Below, in pieces: positions 23,425-30,414 of a DNA stretch of 30,414 nt (its first letter is position 1; the number at the start of each line of letters is the position of its first letter). Origin of the DNA: a virus. The notes under the pieces are model-generated. The model worked only from the letters and a program-made list of their open reading frames with translations, had not been told where the DNA came from and ran no database searches. Both the position numbers and the translations under genes were made by a program. Where the stretch lies: positions 1 through 30,414 of the IMG/VR virus record IMGVR_UViG_3300038701_002748; one strand, given 5' to 3'.

Positions 23425-24300
23425 ATGGAGTCTATCAATCTTCATTCCGTCGATCCGGTCCGTCCCGTCGCCCCCTACCTCGGCGGAAAGCGCCACCTGG
23501 CCAAGCGCCTGGTCGAGCGTATCAACGCCATTCCCCACGCGACCTATGCCGAGGCATTCATGGGTATGGGCGGGGTGTTTTTTCGTCGCACCCTCCAGCC
23601 CGAATCCGAGGTGATCAACGACCTCAATCAGGATGTCGCGAACCTGTTCCGCATTCTGCAGCGCCACTATCCACAGTTTCGGCAGGTGATCGAGTTTCAG
23701 CTCACCACCCGCGCGGATTTCAACCGCCTGGTCGCCACCGATCCCACAACCCTGACCGACCTCGAACGCGCCGCCCGGTTCCTGTACCTGCAGCGCACGG
23801 CGTTCGGAGGCAAGGTGAGCGGAAACAATTTTGGTGTGAGCGTTGGCCAATCATCACGCTTCGATTTGCAGAAGCTCGGCCCGATGCTCCAGGAGGTCCA
23901 CGCCCGGCTGTCCGGCGTAGTGGTCGAATGCCTGCCGTATCAGGATTTCATCCCCCGTTACGACCGCCCTGGCACGCTGTTCTATCTTGATCCCCCGTAT
24001 TTCGGCTGTGAGACCGACTATGGCCCGGGCATGTTTGCGACCGACGATTTCGAGCGCCTGTCGGACCTGCTGTCGGTGTTGTCAGGCCGGTTTATCCTGT
24101 CGATCAACGACACACCGGAGATCCGCGAGATTTTCGGGCAGTTTGAGATCGAGGAAGTGACAGTCACTTATACGATCCAGGGTAATGCCAACACCAAACA
24201 GGCCGCAGAGTTGATCGTGTCCGGCGGTGTCGGTCTGTCCGAAGAGGATGCTCCGCGCCCAACACAAGATTTATTCGGCCAACCGCGCTATCTGCGATGA
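23425..24300 (+). CDS. dam: DNA adenine N6-methyltransferase, Dam family
   Basis: The 291-aa enzyme should transfer methyl from SAM to N6 of adenine, probably in GATC. Motif X/I elements are PYLGGKRHLAKRLV (about 17-30) and AEAFMGMGGVFFRR (42-55). NDLNQDVANLFRILQ (65-79) carries the motif-II Asp. The catalytic motif IV is DPPY at 189-192 in FYLDPPYFGCETDYG, and a motif close to FILSINDTPEI follows. Length and order are those of class D12 enzymes such as Dam. The ATG at 23425 has a weak ribosome binding site and the gene stands alone between hairpins and attP, like a moron. Likely use: protecting phage DNA from host restriction or timing replication. Confidence 0.93.
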   Translation: MESINLHSVDPVRPVAPYLGGKRHLAKRLVERINAIPHATYAEAFMGMGGVFFRRTLQPESEVINDLNQDVANLFRILQRHYPQFRQVIEFQLTTRADFNRLVATDPTTLTDLERAARFLYLQRTAFGGKVSGNNFGVSVGQSSRFDLQKLGPMLQEVHARLSGVVVECLPYQDFIPRYDRPGTLFYLDPPYFGCETDYGPGMFATDDFERLSDLLSVLSGRFILSINDTPEIREIFGQFEIEEVTVTYTIQGNANTKQAAELIVSGGVGLSEEDAPRPTQDLFGQPRYLR

Positions 24301-24348
24301 TCGAGTAAGTCGCATATTCCGCGCGCTACGGTGCAGTTTCCCCTTCGC

Positions 24349-24390
24349 ATTTCCGGACACATTTCCGGACACATTTCCGGACACAATTTC
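24349..24390 (+). repeat. Left arm repeats: three 12-bp units
   Basis: ATTTCCGGACAC occurs three times head to tail (24349, 24361, 24373) and ends with AATTTC. The whole 42 bp recurs without change at 24559-24600. Size and tandem direct orientation fit arm-type integrase binding sites; replication iterons are the alternative. Confidence 0.9.
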
Positions 24391-24438
24391 CGATGAAAAA
24401 ATCCTAACAACCTGAAAAATAATAATAAAAGATATCGT

Positions 24439-24460
24439 CCAAATCCTACTCGCGGAGCCA
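24439..24460 (+). other. attP: Putative attP core: 3' end of a tRNA-Asn gene
   Basis: The sequence ends TCGCGGA-G-CCA (24450-24460), the 3' acceptor strand, discriminator G and CCA of a tRNA. Upstream CCTAC (24445-24449) would be the T-stem 3' strand and TCCAAAT (24438-24444) the T-loop, matching TTCAAAT but for one base. A 3' acceptor strand TCGCGGA with G73 pairs with a 5' TCCGCGA, the start of many alphaproteobacterial tRNA-Asn(GTT) genes. No other part of a tRNA precedes it, as expected for an attachment core copied from the host gene. Confidence 0.72.
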
Positions 24461-24469
24461 CTTTTCCAG

Positions 24470-24490
24470 CCCCGTTTCGACGGGGTTTTT
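24470..24490 (+). terminator. Intrinsic terminator with TTCG tetraloop
   Basis: CCCCGT-TTCG-ACGGGG (24470-24485) is followed by five T and then ATTTGTTTT. It stands ten bases after the tRNA-like CCA, as a host tRNA terminator would. After integration it would serve the rebuilt tRNA gene and would shield int from outside transcription. Confidence 0.85.
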
Positions 24491-24558
24491 ATTTGTTTTC
24501 AATTAGTTAAGCGCTATTTTGCCGTCGCGCTGAATTGGCTTTTTGTCGAAAATGCTTG

Positions 24559-24600
24559 ATTTCCGGACACATTTCCGGACACATTTCCGGACACAATTTC
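24559..24600 (+). repeat. Right arm repeats: three 12-bp units
   Basis: This is an exact second copy of the 24349-24390 block, in the same orientation, ending 4 nt before the first possible integrase start. If integrase binds here, it would likely repress its own expression. Confidence 0.9.
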
Positions 24601-24604
24601 GGGA

Positions 24605-25957
24605 GTGTGCACGTTGGCAGGGTATTCCAGGGAATATTTAGTGCTGGATCGAGGCCGGTGGTTGTTTCGGCGGCGGGTGCCGCGTGACCTGGTTGATCTG
24701 GTCGGTCAGTCGACGATCAAAATTGCATTGGGTACCGACTCCTTGATTGTGGCGCGCCAGCGTGTTGGTGCTGTGAATGCCGATTGCGAGGCGCATTGGA
24801 AGGCGTTGCGGTTGGCAGATGGCGATGAGGCTGCGAATGCCGTTCGCGCCCGATTTGCGGCGGCGCAAGCGCAGGCGCGACGGTTCGGGTTTGACTATCG
24901 ATCGGTTGACGACCTGGCCACTGGTCCGCTTGAGGATCTGCTGGCGCGGGTCGAGGTTGCCGGGGGTGCCGGCGCGGCAGAACCGCGCGGTCGGGCGCTG
25001 GCTGCCGGGTTGCTGGGCGGTGTGCCGAGGCCGCCGCTGACCTGGGCGGCCGCATTCAAGTTGTTTGAAGAGGCAACGGCCACCGATCGTACCGGCTTTG
25101 GTCCGGATCAGCTGCGGCGCTGGCGCAATCCGCGACTGTTGGCAATCCGGAATTTCGAAGCGGTCGCTGGTTCCGTGGCGCTGGCCGAGATCACCCGCAG
25201 CCAGGCACTGGATTTTCGTGCCTGGTGGATCGATCGTATCCTTGACGAGGACATGACCGGCGAAGCGGCCAACAAGTCCTTTGGCTTTCTGTCAGCCATG
25301 TTCCGGACGGTGAATGACCTGCAGCGGCTTGGTCTCGACAATCCGTTCACAGGGTTGTCAGTGAAGCTGCGGCAGGGCGATGAACGGTTGCCGTTTGATA
25401 CCGACTGGATCGCAAACACCTTGCTGGCCCCCGGGACGCTGTCCGGCCTGAATGACGAGGCGCGCTGGGTTCTGTTCATCAAGGCGGAAACCGGCGCGCG
25501 GACGCGGGAGATTTGCGGGCTTGATCCTGACGGGCCGGGCGGTGGCGATATCCGCATCGATGCCGACGTTCCGCATATCGTGATCCAGCCGAACCAGTTT
25601 CGAGGGTTGAAGAATGCCCACACCAGGCGCTCGATCCCGCTGGTTGGTGCGGCACTGTCAGCCGCCAAGGCGATGCCGGGCGGGACCGGCCGATACAGGA
25701 CCGGTGCGGATTCGCTGTCGGCGACGGTGAACAAGTTCCTGCGCGAGAACAACCTGCTGGCCACGCCGCAACACTCTTTTAATTCCCTTCGCCACAGTTT
25801 CGAGGACCGCCTGACCGCGGTCGAGGCGCTGGAGAAGGTCCAGGCCGCGCTCATGGGGCATCGCTATGCCAGGCCGCGCTATGGGGCCGGGCCGAGCCTG
25901 GCGCAGAAGCAGGCCCTGTTGAGGCGGATCGCGTTCAAGGGTGTCGAATTTTATTGA
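24605..25957 (+). CDS. int: Tyrosine-type integrase
   Basis: This site-specific recombinase catalyses integration and excision at attP. The N-terminal RGRWLFRRRVPRDLVDLVG (about 16-34) is the DUF6538-like arm-binding region. A SAM-like core-binding domain spans about 145-250. Catalytic residues in the 450-aa reading are Arg299 (TGARTREI), Lys336 (LKNAHTRRSIP), Arg396 (NSLRHSF), His419 (LMGHR) and the nucleophile Tyr426 (ARPRYGAG). The usual His of HxxR is Asn393 here. Start is uncertain: GTG 24605, TTG 24614 (GGGAG upstream) or GTG 24641 (AGGGA upstream); no ATG is near. The 3' end overlaps the convergent nuclease gene by 7 nt. Confidence 0.93.
   Translation: MCTLAGYSREYLVLDRGRWLFRRRVPRDLVDLVGQSTIKIALGTDSLIVARQRVGAVNADCEAHWKALRLADGDEAANAVRARFAAAQAQARRFGFDYRSVDDLATGPLEDLLARVEVAGGAGAAEPRGRALAAGLLGGVPRPPLTWAAAFKLFEEATATDRTGFGPDQLRRWRNPRLLAIRNFEAVAGSVALAEITRSQALDFRAWWIDRILDEDMTGEAANKSFGFLSAMFRTVNDLQRLGLDNPFTGLSVKLRQGDERLPFDTDWIANTLLAPGTLSGLNDEARWVLFIKAETGARTREICGLDPDGPGGGDIRIDADVPHIVIQPNQFRGLKNAHTRRSIPLVGAALSAAKAMPGGTGRYRTGADSLSATVNKFLRENNLLATPQHSFNSLRHSFEDRLTAVEALEKVQAALMGHRYARPRYGAGPSLAQKQALLRRIAFKGVEFY
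24833..24847. repeat. Degenerate palindromic repeat inside int
   Basis: GCGAATGCCGTTCGC differs from the reverse complement core by one base, and is read in frame as Ala-Asn-Ala-Val-Arg, close to the ANGVR of the other two coding copies. Confidence 0.4.
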
Positions 25958-26433
25958 GGCGTCCACCAAATTCCGATCCTGGCGGTCCGGGCATAGCGTT
26001 CGGCGTGTCGATAGGGTGTCATCTCCGGCCGGCCGAGAAGGTATTTTCGCCAGGTCCAGGCCATGCCCTGCGCCAGCAGGCCGGTGGCAATGTCGCCGGC
26101 GGGTGTGGTGCAAACCGCCACGGCGCGCTTGTAGCGGTCGGTGTTCACGACATCGCAGGCCAGCACCTGGTCGTCGACCAGGTCATCGAGCGCGCCCCGC
26201 GCTGTCGGCCCGAGGGGTGTGTCCATTTCCGGCGCATCGATGCCGAGCAGGCGCACGGTGATGTCGCGCGCGCCATCCGGTCGACCGGTGAAGATTAGCG
26301 TATCCCCGTCGATCGCCAGCGCCTGGCCAGTGATGATCGTGCCGGGTGGTAATGCCTCGGCCGATCGCGCCCGGCCCGTCGATGTGGTGCTGGCCAGCGC
26401 ACAGCAGATCAGGGCAATCGTCCATGGTTTCAT
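25951..26433 (-). CDS. Exported thermonuclease (SNase family)
   Basis: The 160-aa product is a staphylococcal-nuclease-like, calcium-dependent phosphodiesterase. Catalytic residues are visible: Asp42 in IDGDTL, Arg61 in ITVRLLGIDAPE, Glu69 of the same motif, and Arg103 in DRYKRAV. A signal peptide (MKPWTIALICCALASTTSTG, then cleavage near RSA-E) sends it to the periplasm or outside. ATG 26433 is chosen because AGAGAGGAAAAACG lies just before it; a longer reading from 26529 would put the signal peptide inside. It is the last gene of the minus-strand operon and converges on int. A role in degrading host or competitor DNA is inferred. Confidence 0.9.
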   Translation of the reverse strand: MKPWTIALICCALASTTSTGRARSAEALPPGTIITGQALAIDGDTLIFTGRPDGARDITVRLLGIDAPEMDTPLGPTARGALDDLVDDQVLACDVVNTDRYKRAVAVCTTPAGDIATGLLAQGMAWTWRKYLLGRPEMTPYRHAERYARTARIGIWWTPQ

Positions 26434-26474
26434 CGTTTTTCCTCTCTCCATCGCCGGGTCAGTCTCTGGTCCGA

Positions 26475-26558
26475 TTACAGCGTCGACAGGCTCGTTGATT
26501 TCTCCAGCCGCCGCTTGCACCAATGGCATACTTTTTCCCGCACTGCACGCCGTGGCAT
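26475..26558 (-). CDS. Possible 27-aa Cys-x2-Cys microprotein
   Basis: A short frame begins ATG at 26558 and reads MPRRAVREKVCHWCKRRLEK, then six more residues with a TAA at 26475-26477. GAGGG lies upstream at a long distance. CHWCKRR resembles half a zinc ribbon. It fits neatly in the gap between two minus-strand genes in this tightly packed operon, but its size makes the call weak. Confidence 0.35.
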   Translation of the reverse strand: MPRRAVREKVCHWCKRRLEKSTSLSTL

Positions 26559-26571
26559 CGGTTGACGCCCT

Positions 26572-26760
26572 CTATTGCTCTGTTTCCAAGTCGGCGACCG
26601 GGATTAGGGTTGCCGCCGCGCTGTCATCCCACTTGACTAAAACCAGGCCCGCGCCGATTGGCACGGATCCGTGATCCTGTATCTCCCCCCGCCAGAACGT
26701 CGCGTTGTTTTCTGGTTCATGCACCACCCGCGTGCCGGGTTTGGCGTTTTCAATCTGCAT
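26572..26760 (-). CDS. Unknown 62-aa early protein
   Basis: The product reads MQIENAKPGTRVVHEPENNA, then TFWRGEIQDHGS and LVLVKWDDSAAATLIPVADL, a small all-beta (SH3- or Tudor-like) look with VKWDD near the end. The start at 26760 is fixed by GAGGAGCGTCAC directly before the ATG. No function is known. It lies in the string of small minus-strand genes with similar ribosome binding sites. Confidence 0.7.
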   Translation of the reverse strand: MQIENAKPGTRVVHEPENNATFWRGEIQDHGSVPIGAGLVLVKWDDSAAATLIPVADLETEQ

Positions 26761-26770
26761 GTGACGCTCC

Positions 26771-26971
26771 TCAATTGAAGTATTCGATTGTGCCGACCCG
26801 CCCGACCGAGGCGAATTCATCTGCTGTTTTGGGGTTTAAGGTGGCTGTGTCGCATCCCGTCGACTTCGGCATGTCCACGATTGGACCGGCATAGATCATA
26901 TCGATGCCTTTCCAGAGAATGACGGTGCCGGGGGAAACCGCGTCATGCACTGCCACGTTGATGTGCTTCAT
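26771..26971 (-). CDS. Unknown 66-aa early protein
   Basis: The product begins MKHINVAVHDAVSPGTVILW and continues MIYAGPIVDMPKSTGCDTAT, ending FASVGRVGTIEYFN. Beta-rich, soluble, one Cys. AAGGAGCGATGAACG precedes the ATG, one of the near-identical sites of this operon. It ends 10 nt before the next gene. No family was recognised. Confidence 0.68.
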   Translation of the reverse strand: MKHINVAVHDAVSPGTVILWKGIDMIYAGPIVDMPKSTGCDTATLNPKTADEFASVGRVGTIEYFN

Positions 26972-26984
26972 CGTTCATCGCTCC

Positions 26985-27161
26985 TTATAGACCTGGTACC
27001 CACGTCTCATCGTGGCCTTTTGACAGCGCGTAGATTGCGCTGATTTCCTGCTGGGTCATTGTCTCCAGTGTTGTCCTGACGCAAGCGCCGCATTGAGCGC
27101 GATTGTCTACAGCCTCAATAATTGTGGCGATGCGGTCTAGTCTGGCTTGGTTGGTATCCAT
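26985..27161 (-). CDS. Unknown 58-aa early protein with Cys-x2-Cys
   Basis: Reading the minus strand from ATG 27161 gives 58 aa starting MDTNQARLDRIATIIEAVDN and ending GHDETWVPGL, with a TAA at 26985-26987. ATAAGGAGGATCAAGGGCA is just before the start. CGAC (residues 24-27) could bind metal together with His50. Mostly helical. No family was recognised. It would be missed by a 60-residue length cut-off. Confidence 0.68.
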   Translation of the reverse strand: MDTNQARLDRIATIIEAVDNRAQCGACVRTTLETMTQQEISAIYALSKGHDETWVPGL

Positions 27162-27176
27162 TGCCCTTGATCCTCC

Positions 27177-27557
27177 TTATTGCTCGTCTCGTTGATAACC
27201 ATCAATAGCCTGCTGCCACGCAGCGGCAGCGGTATAGCAGCGCTTACCTGGCCGAAATTCGTTCGGGTCGTGCAGCGCCTGTCCATCCCAAAAGACACTG
27301 TGTCTGGAGCCATCGAGATTGAGGCTTGGAACAGACAGCACAGCAGGCCGTGACCGGTCCAGCTTTGACGGGTCGCGCCAGATCAGGTCCGCGCCGAACA
27401 GATCGGCGATATCATCTGTGCGCTCGGCGCTAAGACCAAACGAGACCAACTCGAAACCATGACAGTGTTTAGCAATGGCCTCGTACTTTTCACCCAAAAA
27501 CATCGCCAGACAGGCGACTGCACAATCGGACTTAAAGTGCTGCTGGACGGTCTCCAT
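27177..27557 (-). CDS. Papain/C39-like cysteine protease
   Basis: The 126-aa product has the layout of a minimal C39-type (papain-fold) peptidase: VQQHFKSDCAVACLAMFLG (residues 4-22) with an oxyanion Gln (5 or 6) and nucleophile Cys12, then SRHSVFWDGQALHDPNEF (84-101) with catalytic His86 and Asp97. There is no signal peptide, so it acts in the host cytoplasm if active. It could process a phage or host protein; C39 domains of ABC exporters cut at double-Gly sites, but no exporter is present here. AAAAGGAGCGACAC precedes ATG 27557. Confidence 0.7.
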   Translation of the reverse strand: METVQQHFKSDCAVACLAMFLGEKYEAIAKHCHGFELVSFGLSAERTDDIADLFGADLIWRDPSKLDRSRPAVLSVPSLNLDGSRHSVFWDGQALHDPNEFRPGKRCYTAAAAWQQAIDGYQRDEQ

Positions 27558-27569
27558 GTGTCGCTCCTT

Positions 27570-27758
27570 TTATCTCGGTTTGATAGAGCCGATCAGGTCA
27601 TCAATGCGAGCCTGTATCGCCTCAATTTCAGCGTTGAAGATGTCCATGCCATCGGTCAGGACTTCCGTGAATTTAGCTTCCGCAAGCATGTCTCTGGAGA
27701 CCATCAATTGAGATCGACGGAGATGCCCCTCGTTCTCAACTTCATCTAAGATCGACAT
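27570..27758 (-). CDS. Unknown 62-aa helical early protein
   Basis: The product begins MSILDEVENEGHLRRSQLMV and ends AIQARIDDLIGSIKPR. It is likely an all-helical, coiled-coil dimer (heptad-like FNAEIEAIQARIDDLI at the C-terminus). ATG 27758 follows ATAAGGAGGGATGT; longer upstream readings run into the radical SAM gene and were rejected. No family was recognised. Confidence 0.68.
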   Translation of the reverse strand: MSILDEVENEGHLRRSQLMVSRDMLAEAKFTEVLTDGMDIFNAEIEAIQARIDDLIGSIKPR

Positions 27759-27774
27759 ACATCCCTCCTTATTG

Positions 27775-28668
27775 CTATGCGCCCCAAAGGTCTGTTTGAT
27801 TTGGGTCCACGCTTGACGGGGCGGTTCTGTCAGAAGCGCGATAGCCTTCAAAATCGGTGTATTTCCACAAGTGCCGGTTCGCCCACCGGGCCACATCCAC
27901 CAGCAGCCGCGCTGTCCAGTCGTGTCTAACCCACGGCTTTTTATCCAAAGCATTTAGCTTCATGAGCGGCTGGCAGTGCGGATCTCCGCCCCAATCGATC
28001 ACGCGCTGAATGCGCCCCATGCACACGTCGAATGGCTCGTTACCGATTAATACGTATACCCGCTTCCGTCTTTGCGGAACGTCTCCGAGCATCTTCATTA
28101 CGCGCTCAACGTGCGGGCCGTCGCCCTCATCATCATAGGCGAACCGCCACGGACCTTTGTTGATCGGCATCCAGCGTCGATACACTTCTTCGTCAAATGT
28201 GCGCGGTTCAAAACCGCTGTTTGCATCGAGTAGCGGCACTTCTGCTGCGCGGTAGCGGCGAACAATATGATCCTGATATTCCGGCGACAAAGCGGATAGA
28301 TTGTTGTCGCAAAGGACCGGCCGCACCGGAAAGTCTGGCAACTCGGTGAACGCCTTTCCTTCCATCGCAGGCACGATGCAGAACCAGCATCCGACCGGAC
28401 AACCCCGGCTTGCGATGGTGGCCATCGGATTTTGTTTGGTGATCGCGTCGGGATAGTCTCCACCGGTCTCCGCAACTTCTGATAAATATTTCATTTGAGT
28501 GAATACGCCCGGCCCACCGGCACGGACTTTATAGCCTTGAGCCCGGTAAAAGACTGCTCGCTGGTATGCGTCTTTCAACATCCAGGTGAACGCAACAGAC
28601 AGATAGGCGGTATCACCCTCCACCCAATCGGCCAATCCACCGCACCATTTTCCGAGGCTATAAGCCAT
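27775..28668 (-). CDS. Radical SAM enzyme
   Basis: The 297-aa product has the radical SAM cluster motif C-x3-C-x2-C: Cys90, Cys94 and Cys97 in ASRGCPVGCWFCIVPAMEG. An N-terminal part (LSVAFTWMLKDAYQRAVFYR, RAGGPGVFTQM, about 23-60) resembles the remnant of a B12-binding-like Rossmann domain of MiaB-type enzymes. RVYVLIGNEPFDVCMGRI and VIDWGGDPHCQPLMK (about 218-255) look like later strands of the barrel. The substrate is unknown. The start at 28668 is set by AAGGAGCGATTATCGAAA. It lies between small unknown genes and near the DNA methyltransferase, so DNA or RNA modification is a reasonable guess, not shown. Confidence 0.87.
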   Translation of the reverse strand: MAYSLGKWCGGLADWVEGDTAYLSVAFTWMLKDAYQRAVFYRAQGYKVRAGGPGVFTQMKYLSEVAETGGDYPDAITKQNPMATIASRGCPVGCWFCIVPAMEGKAFTELPDFPVRPVLCDNNLSALSPEYQDHIVRRYRAAEVPLLDANSGFEPRTFDEEVYRRWMPINKGPWRFAYDDEGDGPHVERVMKMLGDVPQRRKRVYVLIGNEPFDVCMGRIQRVIDWGGDPHCQPLMKLNALDKKPWVRHDWTARLLVDVARWANRHLWKYTDFEGYRASDRTAPSSVDPNQTDLWGA

Positions 28669-28684
28669 TTTCGATAATCGCTCC

Positions 28685-28852
28685 TTAGTGTTTGTTCCGC
28701 AGGAAGCACCCGGAGTACCCGTTGCACCCGTGCTCCCAACAATCGGTACGGCGGTAATCTTCGGTGCAGTGACGCTCTTTCGGGGTCCACTTTTCTTCAA
28801 GGCGCTTGAGAAATCGCCGAGATTTCCAACGCCTGATCCAGCCTAGTAGCAT
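28685..28852 (-). CDS. Unknown 55-aa Cys-rich protein
   Basis: Read from ATG 28852, the product starts MLLGWIRRWKSRRFLKRLEE and ends with a Cys-rich part carrying CTEDYRRTDC, then HGCNGYSGCFLRNKH. The four Cys with His suggest a small metal-binding domain. The N-terminus is basic and amphipathic. AATAAGGAGCGATTAACG precedes the start, the best form of the repeated ribosome binding site. No family was recognised. Confidence 0.65.
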   Translation of the reverse strand: MLLGWIRRWKSRRFLKRLEEKWTPKERHCTEDYRRTDCWEHGCNGYSGCFLRNKH

Positions 28853-28871
28853 CGTTAATCGCTCCTTATTG

Positions 28872-29502
28872 CTATGCCGCCGCGCTCTGCGGTGCATTCG
28901 ATTGATAGACCGCCCGCGCAAACCCCATTGGCGTTGCGCTGCGCATGTTCGCCCGGTTCGGTCCTGGCGGTGCTTTATGTATCCGGTCATCCGGGCAGAC
29001 CTCATCCGGGTGGACAGGCGGCGGCATGACAAATCCGTTGCCCGTCCAGAGGCAGGTCTTTTTTTGTGTATTCGTCGGACGCCTCCAGCCCGCAATAGTG
29101 CCACGGCTGGAAGGTGTGATCCGGCTTGCGCCAATAGCTGCTGATCGTGGAGACCGGGTTTTCGATACAGTATGGCGCACCGAACCACTCAGCCCAGAAT
29201 GCTGCACGTTCAAACAGTTCCACGGATTGCGCCAGAGCGCCCAGGCCTTTGCCCTGGAACCAGCGAGCGCCGGATACAGCCAGATGGTCGCATGGTGGGA
29301 AAGCGGCCAGGAAAGCCACGCCATCCTCCACGACCTCACGGGGCGGCACCCACGTTTTCATATCCGCCTCTATAAACCGGATTCCGTCGCGCTCAGTCTC
29401 TCCGCAGTGCTGGAGGTCCACGCATATTGCGCGGTATCCGGCATCGACCCAGGGCCGCGCCATCGCACCGGTTTTATCGTACAGACTGACCATCCAAGTC
29501 AT
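28872..29502 (-). pseudogene. C5-cytosine-type DNA methyltransferase, frameshifted
   Basis: The frame from ATG 29502 encodes SLYDKTGAMARPWVDAGYRA (SAM site, about 6-25), a motif-IV-like FPPCDHLAVSGARWF (about 68-82) and an ENP motif (YCIENPVSTISSYWRKPDH, about 111-129). It then runs out of the family pattern after EYTKK. The expected tail, TCLWTGNGFVMPPP and then DRIHKAPPGPNRANMRSATP and GFARAVYQSN, is present in another frame down to a TAG at 28872-28874. The switch is at a run of seven A (minus strand; T-run around 29059-29065). Removing one A restores a single 209-aa protein. As written the protein stops at 29002 with 166 aa. The intact type modifies cytosine in phage DNA. Confidence 0.82.
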
Positions 29503-29517
29503 GGCGTTTGTGTCTCC

Positions 29518-29778
29518 TTAATGCTTGGTGCCGGTCGCGGCCTCTACGGTATCGGTCGAGCCGTGCGGGCGGATGTAATCAGGTTCATCAAATCCGTCCG
29601 GCAGGTCGCTGCCGTCAGGTGCTGCAAAGACCACGCAAGCCTGCTCGCCGTCGTCGTAGACCTCTGCGACCGCGCCATAGATGACCTCGCCCTCAACCAT
29701 CACATCGTAGCGCTGGCCGAACATGGCAGTGGCAGTCCCATCCCATGGGGTCCAGCCTTCATCTTCCGGGTTTTCCAT
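29518..29778 (-). CDS. Unknown 86-aa acidic protein
   Basis: The product starts MENPEDEGWTPWDGTATAMF and continues QRYDVMVEGEVIYGAVAEVY, ending DEPDYIRPHGSTDTVEAATG. The pattern W-x-PW-G, V-x-V and a final DYIRPH resembles a common family of small phage proteins that begin W-x-PW-GG and end DIxAYR, of unknown function. ATG 29778 follows GGAGAATTGAAA. The TTG 6 nt upstream is less likely. Confidence 0.68.
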   Translation of the reverse strand: MENPEDEGWTPWDGTATAMFGQRYDVMVEGEVIYGAVAEVYDDGEQACVVFAAPDGSDLPDGFDEPDYIRPHGSTDTVEAATGTKH

Positions 29779-29780
29779 TT

Positions 29781-29924
29781 TCAATTCTCCACACGGTTTG
29801 GCCCAGGCATAGCGCCGGGGCGTTGTGGTATCCGATGCTCACACATCACACATTCGCGATAATCCTCATTCAGGAAATCGACGTATTCGTGACCGAATAT
29901 CCAGCACCAGAACCTAAACATCAT
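29781..29924 (-). CDS. DUF1660-like 47-aa zinc protein
   Basis: The product reads MMFRFWCWIFGHEYVDFLNE, then DYRECVMCEHRIPQ and a short tail. CWIFGHEY followed by CVMC is the layout of DUF1660-type small phage proteins (an aromatic FGH segment and a C-x2-C pair), possibly one zinc knuckle. Its start overlaps the previous stop as ATGA (29921-29924) behind GGGAGAGGA; the second ATG at 29921 is equally possible. The stop (29781-29783) comes just before the next start at 29778. Confidence 0.65.
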   Translation of the reverse strand: MMFRFWCWIFGHEYVDFLNEDYRECVMCEHRIPQRPGAMPGPNRVEN

Positions 29925-30414
29925 TCCTCTCCCGTGCAGTTGCCGGACGTTTCAAAAAGCGGCATCGGCGCGGGTTCATCTGGCGTGGCTGCCGCTGTCT
30001 GGGCAGTGCGGCGGCGGTCATGCGGCCATGTCACCATCCACGGTTTAGGTTCCTCTACACCTTTAGTTCCAAGGCTTTCCTCTTCCACATCGTCAATCCA
30101 TGTGAAGTAGCCGAGCGCCCCTGTCGCGGGGATCGGGCCGCGCTCAACCGGATCAGCGCAAACAAGGCCACGCGGTCCAAAGAACCAGGGGCTATCGCTC
30201 TCCGAGACGATATCGGTGACGGTCACCACGCCGATGATCGCGCCGCGAACAAGGTTGTCAGGGCGCGGGCAATCGACGCCAATCGATAGCATGAAGTGCC
30301 TGGCATCTTCATACTCTTCTCGCGTCATTCCCTTTGCCGCGTGAAGGGCGATCCGGCCCGGCTTCATGCCGTGCTTCACGGCGGGGATAGAGCGGTTCTC
30401 TATGTCCTTCCCGC
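29921..30414 (-). CDS. ASCH-domain protein, 5' end beyond the window
   Basis: The reading frame is open to the right edge, so the N-terminus is missing. The visible part begins with KDIENRSIPAVKHGMKPGRI and continues ALHAAKGMT, the ASCH hallmark of an ENR motif then a strand ending in HA-x-K. Later NLVRGAIIGVVTVTDIV and GALGYFTW are the second strand block. ASCH domains have a PUA-like fold that binds RNA or modified nucleosides, and some cleave N4-acylcytidine. A GTG at 30379 lies inside the domain and is not the real start. The C-terminus is a disordered tail ending CTGEE. Confidence 0.83.
   Translation of the reverse strand, partial: GKDIENRSIPAVKHGMKPGRIALHAAKGMTREEYEDARHFMLSIGVDCPRPDNLVRGAIIGVVTVTDIVSESDSPWFFGPRGLVCADPVERGPIPATGALGYFTWIDDVEEESLGTKGVEEPKPWMVTWPHDRRRTAQTAAATPDEPAPMPLFETSGNCTGEE

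Follow-up and report, generated by a model that had tools for sequence, protein, structure and literature searches.

The region between positions 24349 and 24600 is very probably the intact tRNA-Asn attP of an unintegrated, temperate, contractile-tailed alphaproteobacterial phage, and the neighbouring DUF6538 integrase would bind both its arms and its core. The analysed stretch, referred to as the window, is the IMG/VR record IMGVR_UViG_3300038701_002748 with a length of 30,414 bases and without direct end repeats. Its genes include a small and a large terminase, a portal, a major head protein, a tail sheath and a tape measure, a set that indicates a contractile-tailed phage. Within the region, repeated arm-type sites lie on both sides of a core resembling a tRNA 3′ end, and an integrase gene directly adjoins. 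The earlier note had proposed a complete attP at this location, which is well supported by the match of the core, by relatives with the same plan and by relatives integrated at tRNA genes. No full tRNA was detected in the window by ARAGORN, as is expected for an attP. The features are arranged as follows:

23425–24300: DNA adenine methylase gene, the immediate neighbour of the repeat and core region on the side opposite to int
24349–24390, plus strand: P arm, with the 12-bp arm-type site TTTCCGGACACA repeated three times in tandem and a partial unit besides
24438–24460, plus strand: attP core, the 3′ end of tRNA-Asn(GTT) from the T-loop to CCA (TCCAAATCCTACTCGCGGAGCCA), assigned by matches to genomic tRNA-Asn genes
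24468–24492, plus strand: Rho-independent terminator, a hairpin with a T-run (24468–24487)
24559–24600, plus strand: P′ arm adjoining the integrase start, again with the 12-bp arm-type site three times in tandem
24605–25957, plus strand: tyrosine integrase gene (int) with DUF6538 (predicted arm-binding), core-binding and catalytic domains, assigned from the open reading frame list, DUF6538 and phrog_1

The two outer blocks are identical at 42 of 42 bases, and each consists of three perfect 12-bp units and a partial fourth. The six exact copies of TTTCCGGACACA start at 24350, 24362 and 24374 in the P arm and at 24560, 24572 and 24584 in the P′ arm, which ends 4 bp upstream of the GTG start of int. 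Searched across the window with up to three mismatches, the two-unit pattern was found at these two blocks only, and it did not occur in any of 100 dinucleotide shuffles; the blocks are also the two highest-scoring tandem arrays of the whole window. The unit contains ACA, as do many units of relatives (28/40). While the identical triple-unit blocks, their start-to-start distance of 210 bp and the position of the integrase gene directly downstream were all described correctly before, the designation of the arms as mirrored was wrong, since the blocks are direct copies in the same orientation.

The identification of the core holds up. Aligned to alphaproteobacterial tRNA-Asn genes, as the earlier note had suggested, 19 nt of the core (AATCCTACTCGCGGAGCCA) are exactly present in the tRNA-Asn(GTT) genes of four genomes (L045–L048). 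Allowing up to two mismatches, TTCRAATCCTACTCGCGGAGCCA occurs in 37 of 385 alphaproteobacterial genomes, and all 30 near-match loci examined with ARAGORN were tRNA-Asn(GTT), with two bases in the T-loop of the phage core being unlike tRNA-Asn. The terminator proposed behind the tRNA end is likewise present, and in one of the four exact-match genomes (L048) the tRNA-Asn gene is followed by a similar hairpin with 82% identity over 53 nt. Neither a host carrying the complete core and 3′ flank of this phage nor a lysogen was found in the genomes searched. The order of genome G365 matches the core and terminator only in part. As a side observation, a huge viral contig (L041, IMGVR_UViG_3300013426_000013, 313,762 bp) carries adjacent tRNA-Pro and tRNA-Asn genes, the latter with a 3′ end identical to that of the phage core.

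The integrase was assigned to phrog_1, and its N-terminus matches DUF6538 (PF20172) with 56.2 bits at a Pfam cut-off of 27. The structure model, calculated from 17 sequences, reached a mean pLDDT of 87.2, and its best structural matches were the Tn1549 and lambda integrases, with a match to full-length lambda Int (1z1b) over 469 columns. Residues 12–71 were modelled as three strands (12–15, 18–24 and 37–41) and a long helix (47–71) at a pLDDT of about 80–93; folded in isolation, the N-domain gave a poor, unusable model. A layout of three strands and one helix has been described for arm-binding domains (PMC8138268), and the DUF6538 domain is thus predicted by the full-length model to share the fold of known arm-binding domains. 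DUF6538 is therefore likely an arm-binding domain, which by analogy would contact the 12-bp units. The domain is present in 109 of 398 sampled Pseudomonadota genomes, and no paper naming it was found in a literature search whose coverage excluded most subscription journals. In the clade of this integrase, the HxxR motif (around residue 393) has lost its first histidine, in whose place N, Y and others occur; for the IntDes subgroup, a tyrosine at this position has been reported (PMC8138268). The sequence GGGAG (24601–24605) overlaps the listed GTG start and sits 8 bp upstream of a TTG codon in the same frame (24614), around which the alignment of the relatives begins, so that the true integrase start may be this TTG. 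Directly after int and convergent with it, a staphylococcal-nuclease homologue (PF00565) is encoded on the minus strand (25951–26529), and the stretch from 26430 to 29940 contains small leftward genes with a recurring strong ribosome-binding sequence upstream (TAAGGAG, minus strand).

Direct searches of viral contigs yielded no close integrase relatives and no exact copy of the repeat; a search with the alignment of relatives did recover related viral contigs. One of these, L155 (IMGVR_UViG_3300006467_000425), is among the closest known systems; it encodes an integrase that is 45% identical to that of the window and shows the same order of three 12-bp units, a tRNA-type end (CTCCGGAGCCA), a terminator, three 12-bp units and int, with a start-to-start distance of 208 bp between the blocks. 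Its unit TTTCGGGATACA is identical to the window unit at 10 of 12 positions. The units of L155 vary at a few positions, and its putative tRNA end is assigned from its own sequence. P-side units were present in L166, L176, L214 and L220 as well; the unit counts in the P and P′ arms were 4 + 3 in L176, about 3 + 3 in L166, 2 + 2 in L214 and L211, and 3 + 2 in L220.

Including the window, the separations between P and P′ were 210, 208, 190, 164, 221, 220, 208 and 209 bp. The spacing claimed earlier is thus correct for the window, but it is not a fixed property and ranges from 164 to 221 bp among the relatives. Seven of the eight separations fall within about 0.2 turn of whole helical turns at 10.5 bp per turn, in a comparison that was picked post hoc with the register left free, and it is only suggestive that integrase bound to both blocks would face the same side of the helix.

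Integrated relatives adjoin full tRNA genes and carry the repeats beside the integrase at one end. In the prophages of genomes G333 (tRNA-Gln) and G001 (tRNA-Ser), the units of the integrase side recur before a second tRNA end approximately 40–46 kb away, and from these sequences the arms appear to be split between attL and attR; the units were weaker in G363 and G453. The shared cores of the integrated relatives measure 19–23 bp (20 bp in G333 and 19 bp in G001, spanning T-loop to CCA), the same extent as the window core. With regard to the earlier suggestion to look for prophages with the same integrase at the tRNA-Asn gene, DUF6538 relatives do reside beside tRNA genes.

The arrangement was surveyed across the integrase family, which is large and has been little described, and the layout recurs within it. 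A tRNA gene of one of many specificities was located within 400 bp upstream in 65 of 99 DUF6538-type integrase loci, in 64 of these on the same strand. Tandem repeats of 11–13 bp were found directly before the int start in 40 of 89 non-redundant loci (approximately 0.5 expected), when the last 90 bp upstream of int were required to match at 9 of 10 bases, and about half of the DUF6538 loci showed no clear repeat pair under this strict threshold. By lag, repeats occurred at 12 in 14, at 13 in 24 and at 11 in 3 of the 89 loci, with 0.1–0.2 expected per lag; the remaining lags were empty apart from 24–25 and stray single matches, and control regions farther upstream gave a single match at lags 11–13. 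The regularity of the blocks, previously regarded as unusual for attP arms, is hence typical of this family, and judged from these sequences tidy repeat arms are its rule and no oddity. A second upstream block of at least two units was found in 7 of the 36 loci lacking a tRNA gene, with the window among them, and in none of the 49 loci integrated at a tRNA; this is the pattern expected from integration, by which the P arm would be moved to the far end. In two loci (L033 and L034), the tRNA-like end approximately 100–150 bp before int is reversed compared to the other relatives, while the arm repeats look normal. The similarity of the unit sequences correlated with that of the N-domains (Mantel r 0.42, permutation p 0.0005), and this correlation was set aside as proof since it is driven by close relatives.

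Short tandem repeats of one direction within an AT-rich stretch (44.7% G+C compared to 63.6%) also resemble iteron arrays, and the repeats could accordingly serve a replication initiator, with the tRNA end being incidental. An iteron origin should have the initiator gene next to the repeats; here, the adjoining genes encode a DNA adenine methylase and the integrase, and no rep gene was among the proteins scanned. Since the relatives moreover keep the repeats together with an integrase and a tRNA end, and part them to both ends of integrated prophages, this origin was rejected as extremely unlikely. Slightly less remote, yet still very improbable, is that the P′ block mainly acts as an operator through which either integrase or a repressor controls the int promoter, with the P block as a spare copy. 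Binding 4 bp from the GTG would indeed influence int expression, and in ICEMlSym-R7A, attP-bound IntS was reported to stop intS transcription (PMC11963761). However, an operator leaves unexplained why matching blocks flank a tRNA core and why they part to attL and attR in relatives; autoregulation would not conflict with a function as arm sites and may be an additional role of theirs.

A decayed or chimeric module that no longer works would agree with the missing lysogen and with the weak match of the integrase to the Pfam catalytic-domain model (E 0.095). It is nevertheless exceedingly improbable, as the reading frame is open over 450 codons and R299, K336, R396, H419 and Y426, the full R, K, R, H, Y set in the alignment, are kept and conserved in close relatives, while all six arm units are perfect and 19 nt of the core match exactly.

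For the intact attP, we propose the following course of integration, modelled on lambda integrase. The DUF6538 N-domain would hold both outer blocks through three 12-bp arm sites per side, all pointing in one direction, while the core-binding and catalytic domains would grip and cut the tRNA-like core. The latter, in which the crossover presumably lies, would recombine with the 3′ end of a host tRNA-Asn(GTT) gene, and a full tRNA-Asn would be rebuilt from the host 5′ part and the phage segment from T-loop to CCA with its terminator, which would replace that of the host gene. Afterwards, the tRNA would be followed immediately by the P′ arm and int, with the P arm at the far end before the displaced tRNA fragment. 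A more far-reaching reading, which we consider rather doubtful, is that DUF6538 defines an arm-binding lineage working with near-symmetric arrays of two to four 12–13-bp sites per side in the same direction, on which integrase subunits sit head to tail per arm. Since a recombination complex has four integrase subunits and there are six arm sites, integration and excision might under this reading each use their own subset of sites, perhaps with less need for host bending proteins.

Lambda integrase is two-handed and binds arm and core sites separately, as is predicted for the integrase of the window. The lambda attP differs in that its arms are uneven and its core does not derive from a tRNA. 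In the mycobacteriophages CrimD, Pixie, Giles and L5, short arm repeats flank a tRNA- or tmRNA-derived core 5′ of int as in the window (PMC3203893), while their integrases differ. The Pixie attP carries 2 + 3 arm repeats in direct orientation, comparable to the direct blocks described here, and in CrimD a terminator lies between the core and P3 as in our layout, but the CrimD repeats measure 11 bp and their two pairs are mutually inverted (PMC3203893). ICEMlSym-R7A is alphaproteobacterial as well, with IntS arm motifs and int beside attL; it differs in having five arm sites of another consensus (TGKTGGTATC) and in being an ICE rather than a phage (PMC11963761). Direct-orientation arm repeats around tRNA cores were thus already known, and the window is a very regular case, while the family-wide arm signature of DUF6538 integrases appears to be new.

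DUF6538, a domain so far without an assigned function, thereby becomes a probable arm-binding domain that can be recognised in the DNA by its signature of 11–13-bp tandem repeats directly before int. The signature aids in locating attP, attL and attR, and hence the host tRNA targets, in many prophages, and it could yield integration vectors for alphaproteobacteria.
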